64,000 nt of DNA, taken from contig JACYMD010000048.1 of NCBI GenBank assembly GCA_015272215.1, positions 103,940 to 167,939 on the forward strand. The letters run 5' to 3'. The stretch's first letter is position 1; each line of letters opens with the position of its first letter. This stretch comes from Rivularia sp. T60_A2020_040 (GTDB lineage Bacteria; Cyanobacteriota; Cyanobacteriia; Cyanobacteriales; Nostocaceae). The translations under genes and the position numbers were made by a program. Below are positions 5,197 to 27,860 of the stretch, piece after piece. The notes below the pieces were generated by a model. That model was not told the origin of the DNA. It saw only the letters and a program-made list of their open reading frames with translations, and searched no databases.

Positions 5197-7356
5197 CTAT
5201 AAATTGCCAAACTTCGGACTCCACCATCCTTTAGCTGTGTTAAAGTAAACGGCTTCTTTGTGCTTGCTATCTTGTCTTGCTTTGGAATCGGAACACCGTA
5301 ACATAGTTTTCTTTTGTCCATCTTTTGTGTAACTATATTCTTCCAAAGGTTTCTTACATACTGGACAAGGATACTTAGTAAATTTTACCGGAGATTTTTG
5401 ATCATCTGTAGTTTTTTCTGTTTTAGAACCTGGTACTTGCCATGTTTTGTTATAGTCGTTCCAGAATAAAACCACATTTTCACAACCGCTGACACATTTA
5501 AGAAAGTATTTCTTTTTAACTTTACTACTCTTAATTTTTGCTAGATAATTATTACACTCAGGACAACGAGTTCTAGATTTTTCATATTCACGCTCAGTTG
5601 CTGTTGTTTTCTTTCCATTTAACGCAGCGACGGGTATAGTTTTGGCTTTTACTAAAGCTGGTGCAAAGTAATCTTGATTCCAACTTGTAAGATATTTTTG
5701 CCAAGGTTCTTTTCCCGAAGCAATACTATCAAGAGCATCTTCCATTTTGGCAGTAAATTCAGTTTTTAATAAATCTGGTAAAGCTTTTTCTAAAAATTCA
5801 TCTACCTCAAGACCTAAAGTTGTCGGTTGTAAAATTGCTTTTGTTAACTCCACATAACCACGTTTTTTCAAAGTTGCAATTGTGGGAGAATAAGTACTCG
5901 GACGACCAATTCCTTTGCGTTCCATTAATTGAACTAACTTGGGTTCGCTGTATCGTGGTGGTGGTTGAGTCTGTTTCTTCTCATGACCAGCATTTTCTAA
6001 AGTTAATATTTGTCCTTGTTGTAAATTGGGTAAAAGTGTATCTTTACTCAAATTTGACCAATATTTAGCATAACCGAGAAACTCCACTACCTGTCCTCTA
6101 GCTTGCCAAAGTATTTCACCCGATTGAATAATCACCAAAGTTTTACGTAACTGCGCTGCACGACATTGAGAAGCAACGGCTCTTTTCCAAATCATTACAT
6201 ACAAATCAAACTCATCCGGGGAAAGTTCAACCCGCAACTCAACCGAAGGACGAAATATATTAGTAGGACGAATTGCTTCATGAGCTTCCTGAGCAGTTTT
6301 ATTACTCCGATGTCTGGCTGTGGATTGCGGTACATTTTGCGGGTCATTTTGCTCCAACCACTTACGGACGCTAGCACAGAACTCTGGACTCAACATGACC
6401 GAATCCGTCCGCATATAAGTAATTAAACCAGCCTCATACAGCTTTTGTGCTACCTGCATAGTTTTTTCCGGAGCAAACTTCAACCGTGAACCGGCAGCTT
6501 GTTGCAGAGTAGAAGTAATAAAAGGTGGAGGTGGTTGACGGCTGGCGATTTTCCCTTCGTATTGGACAATTTGATGGGGATGATTTCGCGCTTGAGTCAC
6601 CAACCGTTCGGCTTCAGCTTCGGAAAGTACACGAGTCGATTCTGCGGTTTCTGATTTCTTAACCACCGTGTCATCATTCTCTTGATTATCTTGCTGTGCT
6701 GTCTCCGGTGGAGAATTATTTACCATTGCTTTATAAAAAGCGCGGAATCCTTCAGCATAGTCTACCCAAACACTCCAATAATCTTGGGGTACAAAAACCA
6801 GAATTTCTCTTTCACGCTGACAAATTAAATGTAGAGTAGCACTCTGAACTCTTCCGACACTTTTTGCACCATTATTCAAAGCCCAAACCAAAGGACTTCC
6901 CTTGTAACCAACTAACTTATCTAAGCAATCTCTGCATAATCCGGCACCAACCAAATTAGTATCAAGCTTGCGGGGTTTAGCCACAGCAGCCCGCACCGCA
7001 GCTTCTGTAATCTCCGTATAGACTACCCTTTTCGGCTCCTTTAACCCCAAAGCTTCCTTGAGGTGCCACGCGATCGTTTCCCCTTCCCTATCGGGGTCTG
7101 TAGCCAAAATCACTTCCTGAACCTGATTAACCGCAGCTTTTAACTTAGTAATAGTTTCCTTCGCTTGCTGACTGCGGGGAATGTAGCGACACCGCACATT
7201 GTGACCATCCATAATAAAGCCCAAAGAATCCTCACCTTCATTACTGAGTTCTCGAATGTGACCGCAACTAGCACGAACAATCCAATCACTTCCCAGAATT
7301 TTACTCAGTTTTTTAACTTTACCAGGAGATTCTACTATCAGCAGACGTTTAGGCAT
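5197..7356 (-). CDS. topA: Type IA DNA topoisomerase I
   Basis: MPKRLLIVESPGKVKKLSKIL (TOPRIM), ILATDPDREGETIAWHL, active-site LITYMRTDSV, MERKGIGRPSTYSPTI, C-terminal Cys motifs. The ORF track begins at 7404; the internal ATG at 7356 matches the family start. Confidence 0.93.
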   Translation of the reverse strand: MPKRLLIVESPGKVKKLSKILGSDWIVRASCGHIRELSNEGEDSLGFIMDGHNVRCRYIPRSQQAKETITKLKAAVNQVQEVILATDPDREGETIAWHLKEALGLKEPKRVVYTEITEAAVRAAVAKPRKLDTNLVGAGLCRDCLDKLVGYKGSPLVWALNNGAKSVGRVQSATLHLICQREREILVFVPQDYWSVWVDYAEGFRAFYKAMVNNSPPETAQQDNQENDDTVVKKSETAESTRVLSEAEAERLVTQARNHPHQIVQYEGKIASRQPPPPFITSTLQQAAGSRLKFAPEKTMQVAQKLYEAGLITYMRTDSVMLSPEFCASVRKWLEQNDPQNVPQSTARHRSNKTAQEAHEAIRPTNIFRPSVELRVELSPDEFDLYVMIWKRAVASQCRAAQLRKTLVIIQSGEILWQARGQVVEFLGYAKYWSNLSKDTLLPNLQQGQILTLENAGHEKKQTQPPPRYSEPKLVQLMERKGIGRPSTYSPTIATLKKRGYVELTKAILQPTTLGLEVDEFLEKALPDLLKTEFTAKMEDALDSIASGKEPWQKYLTSWNQDYFAPALVKAKTIPVAALNGKKTTATEREYEKSRTRCPECNNYLAKIKSSKVKKKYFLKCVSGCENVVLFWNDYNKTWQVPGSKTEKTTDDQKSPVKFTKYPCPVCKKPLEEYSYTKDGQKKTMLRCSDSKARQDSKHKEAVYFNTAKGWWSPKFGNL

Positions 7357-8551: not shown

Positions 8552-9658
8552 ATGAAGCGAGTTTGTATTATCTTAGGTACTCGTCCGGAAGCGATTAAAC
8601 TGGCTCCGGTGATTCAAACTTTCCAAGGCTATCAAGGCTTGGAAACTCAGGTGATTTTAACCGGACAACATCGGGAGATGGTGGAACAGGTGATGGGATT
8701 GTTCAATTTAAAAGCCGATCGCGATTTAGAGATTATGCAGCCAAAACAATCTCTGAGCGATATTACCTGTCGTAGTTTGCGTGGTTTGCAAGAGTTATTC
8801 GAGGAAAACCAACCAAATTTAGTTTTGGTGCAAGGAGATACAACTACAGCTTTTGCAGCAGCTTTAGCAGCTTTTTATCAAAAAATTCCGATCGCTCATG
8901 TGGAAGCTGGTTTAAGAACCGATGACTTATTTAATCCTTACCCAGAAGAAGCTAACCGACGTTTAATTTCCCAAATTGCTCAACTGCATTTTGCGCCGAC
9001 ACCTCTGGCTACAGAAAATTTACAACGTTCTGGGGTGTTAGGGGAAGTTCACATGACGGGTAACACCGTAATTGATGCGCTGTTGAATGTGGCTAAAAGC
9101 GAACCTCCTTGTAATGTACCGGGTTTGGAATGGAATGATTATCGAGTAATTTTAGCTACAGTTCACCGCCGAGAGAATTGGGGAGAACCGCTGCAAAGTA
9201 TTGCCAAATCATTTTTACAAATATTAGATAAATTTCCTGATACAGCATTATTGTTACCTTTACATCGTAATCCTACGGTTAGAGAACCCTTACAGGCAAT
9301 GTTGGGGAATCATCCCCGAATCTTCTTAACAGAACCTCTAGACTACGCTCAACTCGTGGGTGCGGTAATGCGATCGCACTTATTACTTACTGACTCAGGT
9401 GGGTTACAAGAAGAAGCACCTAGTTTAGGCAAACCAGTATTAGTACTGAGAGAAACAACCGAAAGACCCGAAGCAGTAAGCGCAGGTACAGCCAAACTTG
9501 TAGGAACCGATACCCAGACAATTGTCGCTAGTGCAGCACAACTATTGAGCAATCCCACAGCTTATGAAACAATGGCAAGTGCAATAAATCCCTTCGGAGA
9601 TGGTTACGCTTCGCAGCGGATTTTAGAAATTGTACGGGGGTTTTTAGGAGTTAATTAG
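8552..9658 (+). CDS. wecB: UDP-N-acetylglucosamine 2-epimerase (non-hydrolysing)
   Basis: ILGTRPEAIKLAPVI, TGQHREMV, VQGDTTTAFAAALAAF, HVEAGLRT, TVHRRENWG, LTDSGGLQEEAPSLGKPVLVLRETTERPE. Confidence 0.95.
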   Translation: MKRVCIILGTRPEAIKLAPVIQTFQGYQGLETQVILTGQHREMVEQVMGLFNLKADRDLEIMQPKQSLSDITCRSLRGLQELFEENQPNLVLVQGDTTTAFAAALAAFYQKIPIAHVEAGLRTDDLFNPYPEEANRRLISQIAQLHFAPTPLATENLQRSGVLGEVHMTGNTVIDALLNVAKSEPPCNVPGLEWNDYRVILATVHRRENWGEPLQSIAKSFLQILDKFPDTALLLPLHRNPTVREPLQAMLGNHPRIFLTEPLDYAQLVGAVMRSHLLLTDSGGLQEEAPSLGKPVLVLRETTERPEAVSAGTAKLVGTDTQTIVASAAQLLSNPTAYETMASAINPFGDGYASQRILEIVRGFLGVN

Positions 9659-20153: not shown

Positions 20154-20564
20154 CTAACCTTCAACACTCAATAGAATAAGAGGAATGTGTGCTTGGAAAC
20201 TCTGAAAATCGTTATCGGTTGTGAGGATGCTGTAGCTTCGATGATGGGCAACTGCACAAATCAGAAAATCAGTATTTGAACCTTGGATACCATTGCTACG
20301 GCAGGTATTAAAAAACTCTGCGGCGAGTTCGTAGTCTTCAGGTAAGAGTTCCATATCTGGAAATATCCGCAGGTAATCTCGTAGACGGGTAAACTGTTCC
20401 GAACTGCGAATGCCAGAAAGGATTTTTTGTCTAATCGCACCCAGCAAAGCAACTTGGTCATTGGTAATTAAATCCCGTAATCGGGTGACTACAGGGGAAG
20501 AATCGGGTGGGGTTCTCCGACGCAAAGCCAGTGACCAAACAGAAGTATCAACTATGACCCTCAT
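20154..20564 (-). CDS. vapC: PIN-domain toxin (VapC family)
   Basis: MRVIVDTSVWSLALRR, LPEDYELAAEFFNTCRSNGIQGSNTDFLICAVAHHRSYSILTTDNDFQ. Confidence 0.92.
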   Translation of the reverse strand: MRVIVDTSVWSLALRRRTPPDSSPVVTRLRDLITNDQVALLGAIRQKILSGIRSSEQFTRLRDYLRIFPDMELLPEDYELAAEFFNTCRSNGIQGSNTDFLICAVAHHRSYSILTTDNDFQSFQAHIPLILLSVEG

Positions 20565-20761
20565 ACCTGCTGACGTTGCTGTTTGTAGTCGTAGTCTGGG
20601 TCATAATCAATGGAGCCAAAGAGGTCTAACACTTTGAGTCGCTTGCGACGTTGGATATATTCCCGCAGCGCGGTTTCGACCAGAGCATCAACGGTTATCT
20701 GGTCATCCAGGGAAAGTGCCTCTTGCAGCAATGTATCGTTGATGTTCAACTGTGTAATCAC
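20561..20761 (-). CDS. vapB: VapB-type antitoxin
   Basis: 4-nt overlap with vapC; MITQLNINDTLLQEALSLDDQITVDALVETALREYIQRRKR. Confidence 0.88.
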   Translation of the reverse strand: MITQLNINDTLLQEALSLDDQITVDALVETALREYIQRRKRLKVLDLFGSIDYDPDYDYKQQRQQV

Positions 20762-20961: not shown

Positions 20962-21801
20962 CTAGCACGAAAGATTTTCGCCTGGGGTTACACCCAACCT
21001 CTGGGCAAACTGCTCGTAGAGTTGTATTCTACTCTGAGCCTGTGGAGTCACCTGCCCCTTACCACATTCGATGCCTCCATTGATGATGTTAATGGTCATA
21101 CCGAAGCCAGACATACTTATGGCATTGTGGCACGACGGCTTGGGTGATTGGGGAGTCATCCAAAACCAGAGGGCGGTCATGAAGGAAATGGAGCTATCCG
21201 TTGCAACCAGATCGGGGTTGTTGAGCAGATCAATGCCGAGGGCTGTCCCGCACGCACCATAGTTGTAGTTCCACGACAACTGGATCGGTCCGCGACCGTG
21301 ATATGTTTTACCCTGAACACACGGATAGGTATTATTGGCTGGATCGCAGTAATGAGGCCAATTTGCTGTGTTCAGTTCTTCGATGTATTTTAGATCCCCA
21401 GTCTCATGGGCAATATTTGCCATAAACGCAGCAGCCTCACGTTTATGTTGTTCGTCCGATCCTTCATTGCAGAAGCTTGGGTATTTCTGCGTTGCTGACA
21501 CTAGACCGTCGTAGGAGTAAAAACTGTTACGGTTTGGGAACATAGCTTCAAAGATTTGGCGCGATACAATACCCGCAAACCCATCGCCAGGATGAGAAGG
21601 GGGATTTGAGGGAGGAGTACCAACTGCTAGAATTTGAAGTTGTTGACCAATTTGTAAACTTTGAGGCTGAATATTACCATTAGCAGCAGAGATTTTTTGC
21701 CACTGATTGCCATCACCATAGTATGCTTGAGCTATATCAAATAATGTGTCTCCGGCTTCTACGGTATGGGTTGTTGGAGGATTTCCCTGAATTCTCGCCA
21801 T
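20962..21801 (-). CDS. LysM domain - glycoside hydrolase family 19 (chitinase/endolysin-like) protein
   Basis: LysM THTVEAGDTLFDIAQAYYGDGNQWQKISAANG; GH19 AAFMANIAHETGDLKYIEE and YHGRGPIQLSWNYNYG; start chosen at MARIQGN. Confidence 0.93.
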   Translation of the reverse strand: MARIQGNPPTTHTVEAGDTLFDIAQAYYGDGNQWQKISAANGNIQPQSLQIGQQLQILAVGTPPSNPPSHPGDGFAGIVSRQIFEAMFPNRNSFYSYDGLVSATQKYPSFCNEGSDEQHKREAAAFMANIAHETGDLKYIEELNTANWPHYCDPANNTYPCVQGKTYHGRGPIQLSWNYNYGACGTALGIDLLNNPDLVATDSSISFMTALWFWMTPQSPKPSCHNAISMSGFGMTINIINGGIECGKGQVTPQAQSRIQLYEQFAQRLGVTPGENLSC

Positions 21802-22009
21802 AATTTTTTCTTTCAAGAACTTGAGTTAATCAATTAAGTTGTTGTCAAACTACTTATGTTGGGTTACGCAAAACCTCACCCAACCTACAGGAGATTGCGA
21901 TAAGCGGAGCTTAATGCCAAAGGTATATCGCACTTTATGATCGAGAGTAAAACCTAAGCACGTTCTATTCTCGATCATAAAGTTTTTAAGGATGGCTCAT
22001 TAGTTTGGG

Positions 22010-22396
22010 TTAGCGTTTTCCAAAGACTTGCGTCCAATAATGTTTGTATTGCAATCGACCTGGGTCGTTCTCTAGATAGCAATGACCGACACCAATTTCT
22101 GTATAATCTGGACTAAGAATATTGTTGCGGTGTCCTGGGCTATTCAGCCACTGTTGCATTACAGCTTCTGGTGTAGGTCTGCCTGCCGCAATATTCTCTC
22201 CAACAAAGGAAGATGGATATCCTTCCTCTCTGGCACGTTTAACGGGATCGCCATGCTCAAAGAAATCGCCGTGTGCCATGTTTTGAGAATGTCCTTGTGC
22301 CGCTTTGAACAGTTGCTCATTCCATTGCAACGCTCCTAAACCATGTTTAGCACGTTCAGTGTTTGTCAATGCAATAACTTGTTGTACAAGATCCAT
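22010..22396 (-). CDS. CAP/SCP (PR-1-like) domain protein
   Basis: LTNTERAKHGLGALQWNEQLFKAAQGHSQNMA, VGENIAAGRPTPEAVMQQWLNSPGHRNNILSPDYTEIGVGH. Confidence 0.93.
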   Translation of the reverse strand: MDLVQQVIALTNTERAKHGLGALQWNEQLFKAAQGHSQNMAHGDFFEHGDPVKRAREEGYPSSFVGENIAAGRPTPEAVMQQWLNSPGHRNNILSPDYTEIGVGHCYLENDPGRLQYKHYWTQVFGKR

Positions 22397-22759: not shown

Positions 22760-22787
22760 TTAGGCAATTAGTTTCAATAGTTAGAAA

Positions 22788-22828
22788 TATAGTTGAGGAT
22801 GTCAATTTTTCGCACATCCTCAACTATA
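22788..22828. terminator. 15-bp perfect hairpin downstream of the Cys-rich peptide gene
   Basis: tatagttgaggatgt - caatttttcgc - acatcctcaactata. Confidence 0.6.
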
Positions 22829-22896
22829 ATTTTCGGGGTTCGCTTTAACTGTGCCTAGCTAGATTGCACAAACAATTCGTAGAGCCGTTGGATTTC

Positions 22897-23085
22897 TTAT
22901 CTGGGTACGCACTCACAGTTCATGAAGCCGTCTTGGACACAAATGCGACCATCATGCGAACACCACGACTGGTTACACCCCCCCGGACAGAAGAATTGGG
23001 GCTTCACGCCGTTAGAACTATTCAGCAGATTGTGAGTAGAACTCACTTTTCTGTTAATCGGTTGAGCTTGAATTGGAAGTTTCAT
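22897..23085 (-). CDS. Candidate ribosomally synthesised, Cys-rich precursor peptide (62 aa)
   Basis: MKLPIQAQPINRKVSSTHNLLNSSNGVKPQFFCPGGCNQSWCSHDGRICVQDGFMNCECVPR; Cys-free N-terminus then six Cys; same strand, 130 nt downstream of the PatA/PatG-type protease. Confidence 0.55.
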   Translation of the reverse strand: MKLPIQAQPINRKVSSTHNLLNSSNGVKPQFFCPGGCNQSWCSHDGRICVQDGFMNCECVPR

Positions 23086-23215
23086 GTTGTTTCTGTGTTT
23101 TAGTATTAAGTGTTCGTTCTATGAGGTGCAACCGAGAAAATCTCTCCCTCACAGGTCAAGTCGTGTCTGATAACGGGCAGACACAGCCCGAAAGAATGCT
23201 TTATCCTCGTGCCAG

Positions 23216-25237
23216 TTAGCTGGCGACAGACCAAGAGCGGACTCTACCGATAGAGACAGGAATAGCATCGCTGACATCCACTGTGAACCGATAGACTTTT
23301 CCGGCTCTACGACTATCTTGTAGGTTAAAAAACTGTAATTTCACATCGTAGCAATCGGAATCGGGGCGACAGATAGGACTTTTCTCCACCGTAATAGTGT
23401 CCAGTCCAACATCAGCAGCCGTGCCAGTAGACATGACATCGGCAATCTGGAAAGCATTGGTCGCGGAAAAGTTGAGCGCCCGTTCCTGGGGTGTGACACC
23501 TAGATTACGGAATTCATAATAAATCCGCTCCAGATATTCTCGAATCTTATTGCTATAGTCTTCTTCTGAGGGACCTGCTGGATAAGCTTGTGTTAAATTT
23601 TCAATTAATGCGGCAACCGACCATCCGTACATCCCTCGCACTTCTGGGATGATGGCAGGAACGGTTTGACCTGAAAGCAGCTTTATATTGCCTGCGACGT
23701 ACCCTGGAATCGAAACCCGCTCGATGTTCTCGTCGCGCAGGAAGGAGCGCAGTCGCTCATAAGTAACGCTAGCATAAGGACCATTGGGCACGATCGCATA
23801 AATGGGTGTAGCATCGAGATTAAGAGTCCAAATAATTGATTGAGCTTCCCAAGGATGAGGATCGCGTCTAAAGGGATTACCTTCTACATCTTCACCAGAA
23901 AAATAGTAGAGCAGTTCTTGCGTAAGAGGTGGTCTATTCAAATTCATAGACTGCTGAATAGAGTCTCGACGAGCTTGAGTACCGAAATCGTAGCCCAACT
24001 CTCCTAAAGCATAAACTAGCTGAATTTGACCACCTCCACCACAAGAAGCACACTCAGACGGAGTGACAGAAGTATTTGTTTGCTTGCTAGAAGTAATCAT
24101 CATTGGGTTTTCCTGGATTGACATAGTTGTTGGCATAAGTGTTGATGTTTTAGCCCCCGCAGCCTGCACACCGATCGCTGGAGACTGGATAATAGGTTGT
24201 TTCAAATCGAATTCAATCACCTCATTCGGTGGGAGTTCTGCGATAGCGAAGCTGACCTCCGGTATCGCATTGCCAGATTCACTTGGTTGCATTGTGACTT
24301 CTTCTAGTGTGTGGTTTGTCATTGGTTTAATTCCTCCTTTGGTAATTAGGGCATATGCCCCAGAAATATTCAGTGTTCCCACTAGACAGCGACGGCTATC
24401 TAGACCCTTTGATTGATTGCAAGGCAGGGCACTTTGGAGGATGACATCACGAATCCCATGGGGGTCAGGCTTTTCCCCTCGTTGTAGCTGAATACTGAGC
24501 AACAGCGCCACAATGCTTGATACGATGGGAGTAGCAAAGCTAGTACCCGTTTTAACCGCAGTCCCACCCCCAGGGACAGCACCCCAGATATTTTCCCCAA
24601 GAGCGAGAATGCCTTGGGATTGGTAAGCCTCACCCCAATTACTAAACCCAATCGGATTGCCTTGGGCATCCATTGCCCCCACTGCCAGTACCGACTCAAG
24701 GGCAGCCGGAACATGGAGACAATTACAACCATCATTACCTACTGCTGCTACTATCAGAACGTTGTTTTCTTGGCACAATCGAACCGCATTCGCCAGTAAT
24801 CGGTCAGATTCAGCCGATGCAGCCAACTGACCGCCACTAATGTTGATGACATTGGCTCCCTGCTCAACTGCTTGTGTAATCGCTCGTGCAAGGTCTATTT
24901 GGGAACAAGGAGCAAGCCCTTCCCTGCCATCAGAAAACATGGGTATAATTAAGCCTCGACAATTGGGTGCAATACCAGGAACAGGGCTAATGTGTTGACC
25001 AAAGATGATGCTGGCAACATGAGTTCCATGCTGGGATGCAGAACCGCGATCGGCGACACCAGAAACCAAGGTTTGAAGCCGAGTAAGATTAGCTCCTTCA
25101 AAGCAGCTATGAGACTGGTCAACTGGTCCGTCAAGTATGGCAATGCATATGCCAGGAGTACCCAGAGATTCATTCCAAAGTGATTTAAGTCCAGGCAATA
25201 CTGAAATGTCGGCAAAGTCAGTCGTTATAGTTGCCAT
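23216..25237 (-). CDS. Subtilisin-like protease of the PatA/PatG cyanobactin-maturation family
   Basis: S8 triad CIAILDGPVD / SQHGTHVASI / KTGTSFATPIVSS; C-terminal QLVYALGELGYDFGTQARRDSIQQSM characteristic of the PatA/PatG family. Confidence 0.88.
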   Translation of the reverse strand: MATITTDFADISVLPGLKSLWNESLGTPGICIAILDGPVDQSHSCFEGANLTRLQTLVSGVADRGSASQHGTHVASIIFGQHISPVPGIAPNCRGLIIPMFSDGREGLAPCSQIDLARAITQAVEQGANVINISGGQLAASAESDRLLANAVRLCQENNVLIVAAVGNDGCNCLHVPAALESVLAVGAMDAQGNPIGFSNWGEAYQSQGILALGENIWGAVPGGGTAVKTGTSFATPIVSSIVALLLSIQLQRGEKPDPHGIRDVILQSALPCNQSKGLDSRRCLVGTLNISGAYALITKGGIKPMTNHTLEEVTMQPSESGNAIPEVSFAIAELPPNEVIEFDLKQPIIQSPAIGVQAAGAKTSTLMPTTMSIQENPMMITSSKQTNTSVTPSECASCGGGGQIQLVYALGELGYDFGTQARRDSIQQSMNLNRPPLTQELLYYFSGEDVEGNPFRRDPHPWEAQSIIWTLNLDATPIYAIVPNGPYASVTYERLRSFLRDENIERVSIPGYVAGNIKLLSGQTVPAIIPEVRGMYGWSVAALIENLTQAYPAGPSEEDYSNKIREYLERIYYEFRNLGVTPQERALNFSATNAFQIADVMSTGTAADVGLDTITVEKSPICRPDSDCYDVKLQFFNLQDSRRAGKVYRFTVDVSDAIPVSIGRVRSWSVAS

Positions 25238-25763
25238 GTATTAACTAATTACACCCACCTTTAACTAATTTGATAACTATTTCTTTCGCTCTTTGTAACT
25301 ATTTAACTATTGCTCTTAGTTTGCACCTTCAACTAAAACCAAACCACCAAAGTTTACAACTTTAAGAAAAAAGTTAAGGATTTAGCACTAGCAATTTCCT
25401 AAAGTCATTCCTCATATTGGTTTCAGTCACCGAAAATTTAAGAACCTTGTAATCATTATTTAACGCCGTTCTTAACTTTGGAAAAAACCCTAAGTTAATA
25501 AATATAATTCTGTTTACCTTTCCCATAGAAAACTTCAATTCAAAACTTATATATTTATATATTTAGAAGTATTGACAATATAGACTTTTGTTGGATTCGT
25601 AGATAATAAGCTTGTTGAAAATAAACTTTTTAGAATTGTATTCGTAAGATTTATAACTATACTGCGTAAATTTGCAAAGTGCATAAGTCATAACAGTATT
25701 CATCTATATATATTAGTCGGTGGATTACTAAACACATTTTGATACTTGGATTTACAGTTAAAA

Positions 25764-27242
25764 ATGCGATTACAATCAAAAAATCAGCTACGACGGCGGG
25801 GTGCGACTTTGACGGCTCAAGGCTCAAGCAAACTCAACCACGCAAAAGCTGAAGTAGAAATTGAACGAAATTTTAAGCGATACACTCTTGAAGACCTCAG
25901 TGAGAAATGCGGGTTAACCCCTAATACCCTCAGCAAGGTATTTACTTGCTCAGTAGGAGTCGATAAGCGAACCCTAGAATGTTGTTTCAATGCCTTTAAT
26001 CTAACCTTATTAAAAGACGATTATCACTATCTTGATCTGGAGACTCACCAGGACAATTTTGCCGACATTGGCTCAATGTTCACGAATGAAAACATCTGTG
26101 CCATCGCATCAGTTTACAATCCTCGCACCAATTCCCCTCAAACCCACAGAATGGAACAAGCGCAAGACGATCGGCAATTTCGTGCCTCAACCATACCAGG
26201 AGGACAGATGCCCCTGGATTCAACCTTTTACGTTGACCGTCCCATGCTTGAATCCCTTTGTTACGAAGCCATCCAGCAACCCGGTGCGCTGCTCAATATC
26301 CGCGCTCCCAAGCAAATGGGCAAAACTTCGTTAATGACCCGCATTCTAGCTTCCGCTAGCCTCATGGGACACAACACAGTTTCGATAAACTTGCAACTTG
26401 CCGAGGACGATATTTTACAGAACCTAGAACGCTTTTTACAATGGTTCTGTGCCAGAGTCAGCAAGCAGCTAGACTTACCAGATGCGATTGCATCTTTTTA
26501 TAACAACAATTTTGGTAGCAAATCGAACACCACTGACTACTTCGAGGATGTTATCTTAGCTAACCTCGATCGCGCAGCGTCTCCAAGGGAAAATCGCCCC
26601 TTAGTCATTGCTATCGATGAAATTAACCAGCTTTTCGCCTACCCAGACGTTGCTCGTGAATTTCTCCTACTTTTGCGAATCTGGTCTGAGCGAGCTAAAG
26701 CAAGGGTAGGAGAGAGCAATCCTTGGCACAACCTCCGACTGGTGACGGTTCATTCCACCGAAATCCAGATACCAGTTTCGATCAATAAATCCCTCTTGAA
26801 TACAGGGCTAGTGTTGAATTTACCTGAGTTTACCCATGCTCAGGTGCAGGAATTGGCAAATCGATGGGGAGAAGAAATAACGGCGGAACAAATCGAGCAA
26901 TTGATTACCCTTCTGGGAGGACATCCCTATCGGTTGCAGTCGGCATTTTATCATCTACATCAGCAGACAATAACCCTTGAACAACTCTTAGAAAATTCTT
27001 CAATTGCTGCTGCCATTTATGCAGATCATCTAGAATCACAATGGTGGAACCTGCTACGATATCCCGATTTATTGCCATTATTTACAGAAATTGTTAACCA
27101 ATCAAGTCCTGTAGATTGCGAGGCTGTGCAAGCCGGACAGTTGTGCAATATGGGGTTGGTGCGTCTGTATGGTAGAATGGCAAATTTGAGATGCGAGTTA
27201 TTTCGTCCTTTTTTCTGCGATCGCTTGGCGCATAACTCTTAG
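25764..27242 (+). CDS. HTH (vMAP-like N-terminal) - AAA-like ATPase domain protein
   Basis: RYTLEDLSEKCGLTPNTLSKVF...GVDKRTLECCFNAFNL; PGGQMPLDSTFYVDRP, RAPKQMGKTSLMTRIL, LVIAIDEINQLF. The ORF track starts at TTG 25746; ATG 25764 is more likely. Confidence 0.85.
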   Translation: MRLQSKNQLRRRGATLTAQGSSKLNHAKAEVEIERNFKRYTLEDLSEKCGLTPNTLSKVFTCSVGVDKRTLECCFNAFNLTLLKDDYHYLDLETHQDNFADIGSMFTNENICAIASVYNPRTNSPQTHRMEQAQDDRQFRASTIPGGQMPLDSTFYVDRPMLESLCYEAIQQPGALLNIRAPKQMGKTSLMTRILASASLMGHNTVSINLQLAEDDILQNLERFLQWFCARVSKQLDLPDAIASFYNNNFGSKSNTTDYFEDVILANLDRAASPRENRPLVIAIDEINQLFAYPDVAREFLLLLRIWSERAKARVGESNPWHNLRLVTVHSTEIQIPVSINKSLLNTGLVLNLPEFTHAQVQELANRWGEEITAEQIEQLITLLGGHPYRLQSAFYHLHQQTITLEQLLENSSIAAAIYADHLESQWWNLLRYPDLLPLFTEIVNQSSPVDCEAVQAGQLCNMGLVRLYGRMANLRCELFRPFFCDRLAHNS

Positions 27243-27378: not shown

Positions 27379-27567
27379 ATGGAAAAGCTCAATATAAAAG
27401 AAGAAGCTCGAAAGCTGATCGATAAATTGCCCGATGACTCTACGTGGGATGACTTGATGTACGAGATTTATGTTCGACAAGTAGTTGAAGCTGGACTTGC
27501 CGATAGTAACGCTGGTAAAGTAATTTCGGTACAAGATGTTAGGGCAAAATTTGGATTACCAGAGTGA
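27379..27567 (+). CDS. Type II antitoxin (RelB/ParD-like)
   Basis: 62-aa ORF overlapping the downstream RelE/ParE-like toxin by 4 nt. Confidence 0.8.
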   Translation: MEKLNIKEEARKLIDKLPDDSTWDDLMYEIYVRQVVEAGLADSNAGKVISVQDVRAKFGLPE

Positions 27568-27860
27568 AAGTTTTCTGGACAGAAACAGCAGTAGAGAATC
27601 TATCAGCAATTTATACCTATATTGCTCAAAACTCACCTCAGTATGCAGACAGGATTATTGATCGCATAACCAAACGTTCCCAACAGATTGCGAATTTTCC
27701 TCTATCTGGTCGAATTGTAATTGAGTTTGAAACCGAGCAAATTCGAGAGGTTATCGAAGGTTCATACCGAATTATTTATTACATCAAACCCGAACAAATA
27801 GACGTACTTGCTGTGATACATGGCGCACAGGAAATTATACCAAACACAGAAGAATCGTAA
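27564..27860 (+). CDS. RelE/ParE family toxin
   Basis: MKVFWTETAVENLSAIYTYIAQNSPQYADRIIDRI...FPLSGRIV...REVIEGSYRIIYYIKPEQIDVLAVIHGAQEI; GTG start. Confidence 0.92.
   Translation: MKVFWTETAVENLSAIYTYIAQNSPQYADRIIDRITKRSQQIANFPLSGRIVIEFETEQIREVIEGSYRIIYYIKPEQIDVLAVIHGAQEIIPNTEES

Follow-up and report, generated by a model that had tools for sequence, protein, structure and literature searches.

A PatA-type protease encoded beside a six-cysteine peptide with a cyanobactin-type leader in Rivularia sp. T60_A2020_040

The protease, the precursor peptide and their neighborhood

The window (the whole 64,000-nucleotide stretch of DNA analyzed here) encodes a 673-residue subtilisin protease at 23,216-25,237 on the minus strand, which was classified as PatA-type from TIGR03895, Pfam and phylogeny. 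It scored 712.7 bits against TIGR03895 (PatA/PatG family; cut-off 421), and Pfam matched Peptidase_S8 together with PatG_D and PatG_C, the latter two in the C-terminal region. The complete subtilisin triad described in an earlier note on this DNA was found as D36/H73/S233 within intact LDG, GTHVAS and GTSFATP motifs. The PatA/PatG-family C-terminal region described there was also found, and the assignment was refined to PatA-like, not PatG-like. The nearest solved structures were PatA-like N-terminal proteases (4h6w, 388 bits), with the PatG protease domain at 199 bits. A PatG-type identity was ruled out by these relative scores, by the protease tree and by the active-site motifs. The protein was also considered as an anti-phage subtilase, for which PADLOC gave general subtilase matches only.

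Protein searches of 386 genomes of the phylum and of GTDB contigs returned homologues. A tree of 103 protease sequences, built with a quick method, contained three groups: PatG-type (32 rows, support 100), canonical PatA (36 rows, support 99) and stand-alone proteases (35 rows, support 100). The window protease belongs to the stand-alone clade (SH-aLRT 100), which is sister to canonical PatA. Its own subgroup, subgroup A, was sampled at 19 loci, with proteases ∼57-85% identical to that of the window.

Separated from the protease gene by ∼130 bp, and on the same strand, lies a 62-residue ORF at 22,897-23,085 with six Cys, as previously described. Residues 3-12 carry the leader motif LPIQAQPINR (23,050-23,079, minus strand), conserved in the alignment of relatives. 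Residues 26-30, GVKPQ (22,996-23,010, minus strand), correspond in the alignment to G[VI]x[PA]S of relatives and form the proposed cut site. Residues 31-62 form the six-Cys core FFCPGGCNQSWCSHDGRICVQDGFMNCECVPR (22,900-22,995, minus strand), as delimited from the ORF and the alignment of orthologues. No Pfam or NCBIfam model matched the ORF, even at E 1. The earlier note had looked to homologues, and to conservation of the frame, as evidence of a genuine precursor; orthologues were found in four other loci with 64-71% identity, and the frame is kept in them. The ribosome-binding site of the window peptide is weak, compared with GGAG in most relatives. The possibility of a chance ORF was ruled out by the orthologues, by the placement of the motif and by matches to a leader profile.

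The core was modelled poorly (pLDDT 58) and gave no significant structural match, the best being follistatin (E 2.0). Without a Pfam match or a significant structural match, assignment of the core to a known Cys-rich domain was rejected.

The strong hairpin reported after the peptide gene is present at 22,785-22,831 (no strand assigned), with arms at 22,785-22,802 and 22,814-22,831 and a fold energy of −34.6 kcal/mol (z −5.1). It is a possible terminator; a terminator scan did not class it as one.

Two neighboring genes may be associated with the system, as judged from domain matches and comparison of loci. A CAP-domain (YkwD-like) protein, matched by Pfam/NCBIfam, is encoded at 22,010-22,396 on the minus strand and is a possible accessory gene. 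An AAA_35 protein (Pfam) with a weak HTH match is encoded at 25,746-27,242 on the plus strand, divergently from the protease. CAP-domain genes lay no more than 5 kb from the protease in 7/19 subgroup-A loci, at two different positions, and in 0/42 canonical loci (p 1e-4). AAA_35 genes were nearby in 7/19 and 1/42 (p 7e-4), respectively; both p-values are optimistic because the loci are related.

The window island runs, between two toxin-antitoxin pairs, in the order GH19 chitinase with LysM, CAP, precursor, protease and AAA_35. The flanking pairs are of VapBC type (20,154-20,761) and ParE/RelE type (27,379-27,860), with hemC and argC, named by eye from the sequence, directly outside them. The chitinase-type enzyme (20,962-21,816) has an N-terminal LysM domain, and no signal peptide was seen in it by eye. 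A few other stand-alone loci, and none of the canonical ones, have C39_2/GH19-type genes nearby. Genes for patatin-like phospholipases lie near the protease in 10 stand-alone loci (L054, L059, L060, L061, L128, L131, L132, L137, L138 and L139); the L061 copy matches PADLOC phospholipase effectors.

Leaders, proposed cut sites and cores of the related precursors

One to five leader ORFs were found in all 19 subgroup-A loci, 22-2051 bp downstream of the protease and on the same strand. Homologues of the window peptide therefore co-occur with PatA-type proteases, and the xLPIQAQPxxR region singled out in the earlier note proved to be conserved across relatives. The consensus is M[KN]LPIQ[AS]QP[VI]xR, with near-invariant L, P, Q, P and R, and V-S-T often follows. 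The motif was matched 42 times downstream on the protease strand and once elsewhere (351 kb, both strands). A profile built from 21 leaders was searched against the 386 genomes of the phylum and matched 24 places in 10 of them, each with a PatA/PatG-family gene no more than a few kb away; genomes without a PatA/PatG-family protease gave zero matches (Fisher 7e-12). The weakest match, in genome G255, is a canonical precursor. Loci L055, L054 and L128 encode four or five precursors each. At L163 (Gloeocapsa sp. PCC 7428 plasmid), where the gene table is incomplete, the annotation names the protease and has no gene over the precursor at 5969-6214. Arrays at L123 and L021 are headed by ORFs of 32-33 residues (8864-8965 and 5305-5406, respectively) that have the leader start, lack a Cys core and end in RP.

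PatA-like enzymes cleave after G(L/V)E(A/P)S, termed RSII (PMC10885120). In most subgroup-A peptides the leader is followed by a site resembling G[VI]x[PA]S and then by a hypervariable Cys-rich core; both the position and the pattern of this site are those of RSII. The Ser is conserved in >90% of aligned leaders; the aligned window GVKPQ ends in Gln instead. A strict RSII pattern caught only 16/41 subgroup-A precursors and a loose form was therefore adopted, which was present in 27/41, against a mean of 3.0 and a maximum of 9 in 1000 composition-preserving shuffles (the shuffle control was run for both forms). The window peptide appears to carry a recognisable PatA cut site, at which cleavage is predicted from the alignment. 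By inspection, RSIII (AYDG, FAGDDAE) is absent from the C-termini of all 41 precursors; it is present in canonical precursors.

Cys statistics were calculated for the same 41 precursors, taking the first 22 residues as the leader part. The leaders contain one Cys in 902 positions, and the remainder of the precursors is 14.8% Cys. Two of the 41 are the 32-33 residue leaders without a core. In all 39 Cys-cored peptides the number of Cys is even: 2 (one peptide), 4 (three), 6 (26), 8 (seven) or 10 (two). The cores cluster into 16 families at 45% identity and show thirty different Cys spacings, so the parity holds across unrelated cores. Since members of a family are related, the count does not amount to 39 independent tests, and an even Cys number is alone no proof of disulfides.

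Further indications came from individual cores. Cys2 and Cys4 are both missing from the window-peptide orthologues at L018 and L124, which suggests that these two residues form a pair. Since L018 and L124 lie fairly near each other in the tree, the double loss may be one single event. The L019 core, CSKKGKICGGFAGAKCCSGAKCRFLPGADYGYC, has knottin Cys spacing and was modelled with a pLDDT of 73-85, with tachystatin B and other cystine-knot peptides as best matches at non-significant E-values. The window core has the spacing C3C4C6C7C1C, which departs from the knottin pattern, and had no significant fold match.

Metal binding is frequent among small Cys-rich proteins. The cores might accordingly bind zinc or copper, or act as intracellular regulators, with the protease controlling their release. 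The reducing cytoplasm would favor such a role, as would the fact that no signal peptide or transporter for the peptide was identified. Thirty Cys spacings in 16 core families argue against a shared metal site, and the knottin-spaced L019 core and the joint loss of Cys2 and Cys4 fit disulfides better. A metal-binding or regulatory role was considered unlikely on this basis, and disulfide folding was preferred.

When related precursors were compared pairwise, divergence was faster in the core than in the leader for most pairs, as in the tandem copies of L054 (leader dN 0.017, core dN 0.485). The exceptions are L022/L125 and the first L123/L021 pair, with leader and core about equal, and the copies of L128, which are near-identical. 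Positive selection on the cores was not supported; dN/dS was mostly below or near 1, and the claim is therefore limited to a core that evolves faster than the leader in most pairs.

Cyanobactin genes and the other stand-alone loci

Active cyanobactin clusters are described as invariably encoding B, C and E together with the A and G proteases (PMC4663559). No YcaO gene was found in the window genome, and no TIGR04445 (LynF/TruF-type) prenyltransferase in any of 27 stand-alone genomes, including that of the window; the lack of a cyclodehydratase and a prenyltransferase, noted earlier for the island, thus extends genome-wide for YcaO and TIGR04445. The window genome has a single TIGR03895 gene that scores above cut-off; it is PatA-type, and PatG is therefore absent. 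The curated PatE models TIGR03678, TIGR04446, PF19155 and PF19158 did not match the window peptide at E 1, and gave only weak matches, below cut-off, for relatives. The view that the core is unlike a canonical azoline cyanobactin core was upheld. With neither PatG nor RSIII, the locus is not a cyanobactin locus by definition, yet it would work like the first proteolytic step of such a pathway.

YcaO is also absent from genomes G005 and G441 (subgroup A) and G157, G213, G426, G472 and G571 (group B, another stand-alone subgroup). Many other stand-alone genomes, several of them in subgroup A, do encode YcaO. At L054 (genome G310) it lies ∼7 kb from the protease on the opposite strand, with unrelated genes in between. 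Locus L016 has a PatG-type gene ∼4 kb downstream with an apparent YcaO fragment, judged by eye, between the two, and is a reminder that mixed loci exist.

The PatG-type gene close by at L016, and the absence of PatG-type and PatD genes from the window locus, would fit a decayed cyanobactin cluster in which PatA and a mutated precursor remain after loss of PatG, PatD and PatF. Such decay is very improbable given that the stand-alone proteases all fall in a single, well-supported clade and have kept their active sites intact, that conservation extends to the leaders, the cut site and the even Cys counts, that up to five intact precursors occur per locus, and that leaders are better conserved than cores in most pairs.

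The earlier note had left two routes of maturation, by disulfides plus proteolysis or by missing enzymes encoded elsewhere. The first is much better supported, because the genome lacks both YcaO and PatG and the Cys number is even throughout the family. For the second, a YcaO elsewhere in the window genome was ruled out by the genome search. A wider form of it would have the peptide as a PatA substrate with Cys residues that a different RiPP enzyme, encoded elsewhere, converts into thioether rings instead of disulfides. Lanthipeptide synthetases and radical-SAM enzymes are encoded by many cyanobacteria, and RiPP enzymes can work apart from their precursors. No such enzyme gene is conserved beside the subgroup-A proteases, however, and even Cys numbers over 16 core families are expected of Cys-Cys linkages rather than Cys-Ser/Thr or Cys-to-carbon linkages; with YcaO also missing from the window genome, modification by a distant enzyme is improbable.

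A PatB-like leader ORF follows most canonical PatA genes and occurs in group-B loci; it was found in no subgroup-A locus. At L075 (4955-5164), L083 (4591-4797) and other canonical loci PatB/AcyB (TIGR04220) directly follows PatA and begins with LPxxxxPVxR, the leader motif of the precursors. The group-B relatives match TIGR04220 (E 1e-13 to 5e-4) and have a Cys-rich tail.

The leader peptides of group-B stand-alone PatA loci L061, L130, L131, L132, L133 and L142 carry GVEAS ahead of cores that lack Cys and look amphipathic, for example AWYDTLLDIAKKAVPIVSNVLGSL. A gene of the leucine-carboxyl-methyltransferase family (PF04072) is present in 9/12 group-B loci, for example at L061 11,596-12,546, and its product might methylate the peptide C-terminus. 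A sigma-70-type factor gene lies upstream of the protease at L138 (13,260-14,255), and related genes lie near several other group-B loci. In a further protease subgroup (L134, L136, L140 and L165) the leaders are altered, for example MRIPNQSIGQIR, and GGVQPS precedes a four-Cys core in the peptide of L165 (7002-7190).

Proposed route and relation to known peptide systems

Removal of the leader by the PatA-like protease, followed by disulfide folding, is the best explanation for the locus, with a probability of roughly three in four. In this proposal, drawn from comparative sequence analysis, the ribosomally made 62-residue precursor would be recognized through its cyanobactin-type leader LPIQAQPINR and cut by the co-encoded protease after the RSII-equivalent site (...SNGVKPQ|FFC...), releasing a linear peptide of ∼32 residues. 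Pairing of its six Cys into three disulfides would follow, probably outside the cytoplasm. Heterocyclization, prenylation and macrocyclization would play no part. Leader and protease would form a fixed cassette, leaving the core free to diversify or be swapped. The gene setting and the hypervariable cores point to antagonism or defense against other organisms as the most likely function.

The system shares with the cyanobactin pathways (patellamide pat, anacyclamide acy) a PatA-type protease of the same domain layout. Subgroup-A precursors further share with PatE the LPxxxxPVxR leader start and, in most of them, a site resembling Gly-hydrophobic-x-[P/A]-Ser, and the pathways are also alike in the hypervariable core and in having several precursors per locus. 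Unlike pat and acy, subgroup A has no PatG macrocyclase, RSIII or PatB and would need no heterocyclase or prenyltransferase; its cores are longer and Cys-rich, with even Cys counts. PatB/AcyB/McaB (TIGR04220) resembles the subgroup-A precursors in its LPxxxxPVxRP start and its place just after PatA, but has one conserved sequence per cluster and no hypervariable Cys-rich core.

Likeness to knottins, or inhibitor-cystine-knot peptides such as tachystatin B, is confined to the Cys spacing of L019 and its low-confidence model. The window core lacks the CC of the knottin pattern, and secretion of eukaryotic knottins depends on signal peptides rather than on a cyanobactin leader; the resemblance of L019 may be convergence. 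The lanthipeptide leader peptidases NisP and ElxP are likewise S8 proteases that remove a leader at a short motif (PMC10885120). The window protease differs from them in belonging to another S8 family (PatA, with a C-terminal domain), and no thioether chemistry was seen here.

The shared C-terminal domain of the proteases is a candidate reader of the leader, a role to be set beside the finding that PatG-DUF showed no binding to PatE' by NMR (PMC4259220). No binding test of PatA-DUF with a leader was found in the literature searched. The leader strings LPIQAQP and LPIQSQP and a stand-alone PatA system were likewise undescribed in the open-access literature searched, which leaves out most subscription journals.

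A broader reading, less likely than not, is that stand-alone PatA and its leader peptides form a general release platform separate from cyanobactins, with the PatB of canonical clusters as a leader-bearing relic of it and the PatA C-terminal domain reading the shared LPxxxxPVxR. Its possible cargoes would include disulfide-rich peptides, knottin-like peptides and the amphipathic Cys-free peptides encoded beside a carboxyl methyltransferase gene in group B.

What these loci were seen to have in common with cyanobactins is limited to the leader motif, the proposed cut site and the protease with its C-terminal domain. Neither Pfam nor NCBIfam has a model that matched the new precursors above cut-off, and genome mining keyed to YcaO would miss them. 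The findings sharpen two questions, the role of the PatA/PatG domain of unknown function and the nature of PatB. One cutting enzyme and its leader appear to serve very different peptide cargoes. If the proposed route is true, the cyanobactin leader and N-terminal protease would be separable from cyanobactin chemistry and would constitute a general release module for disulfide-rich peptides.
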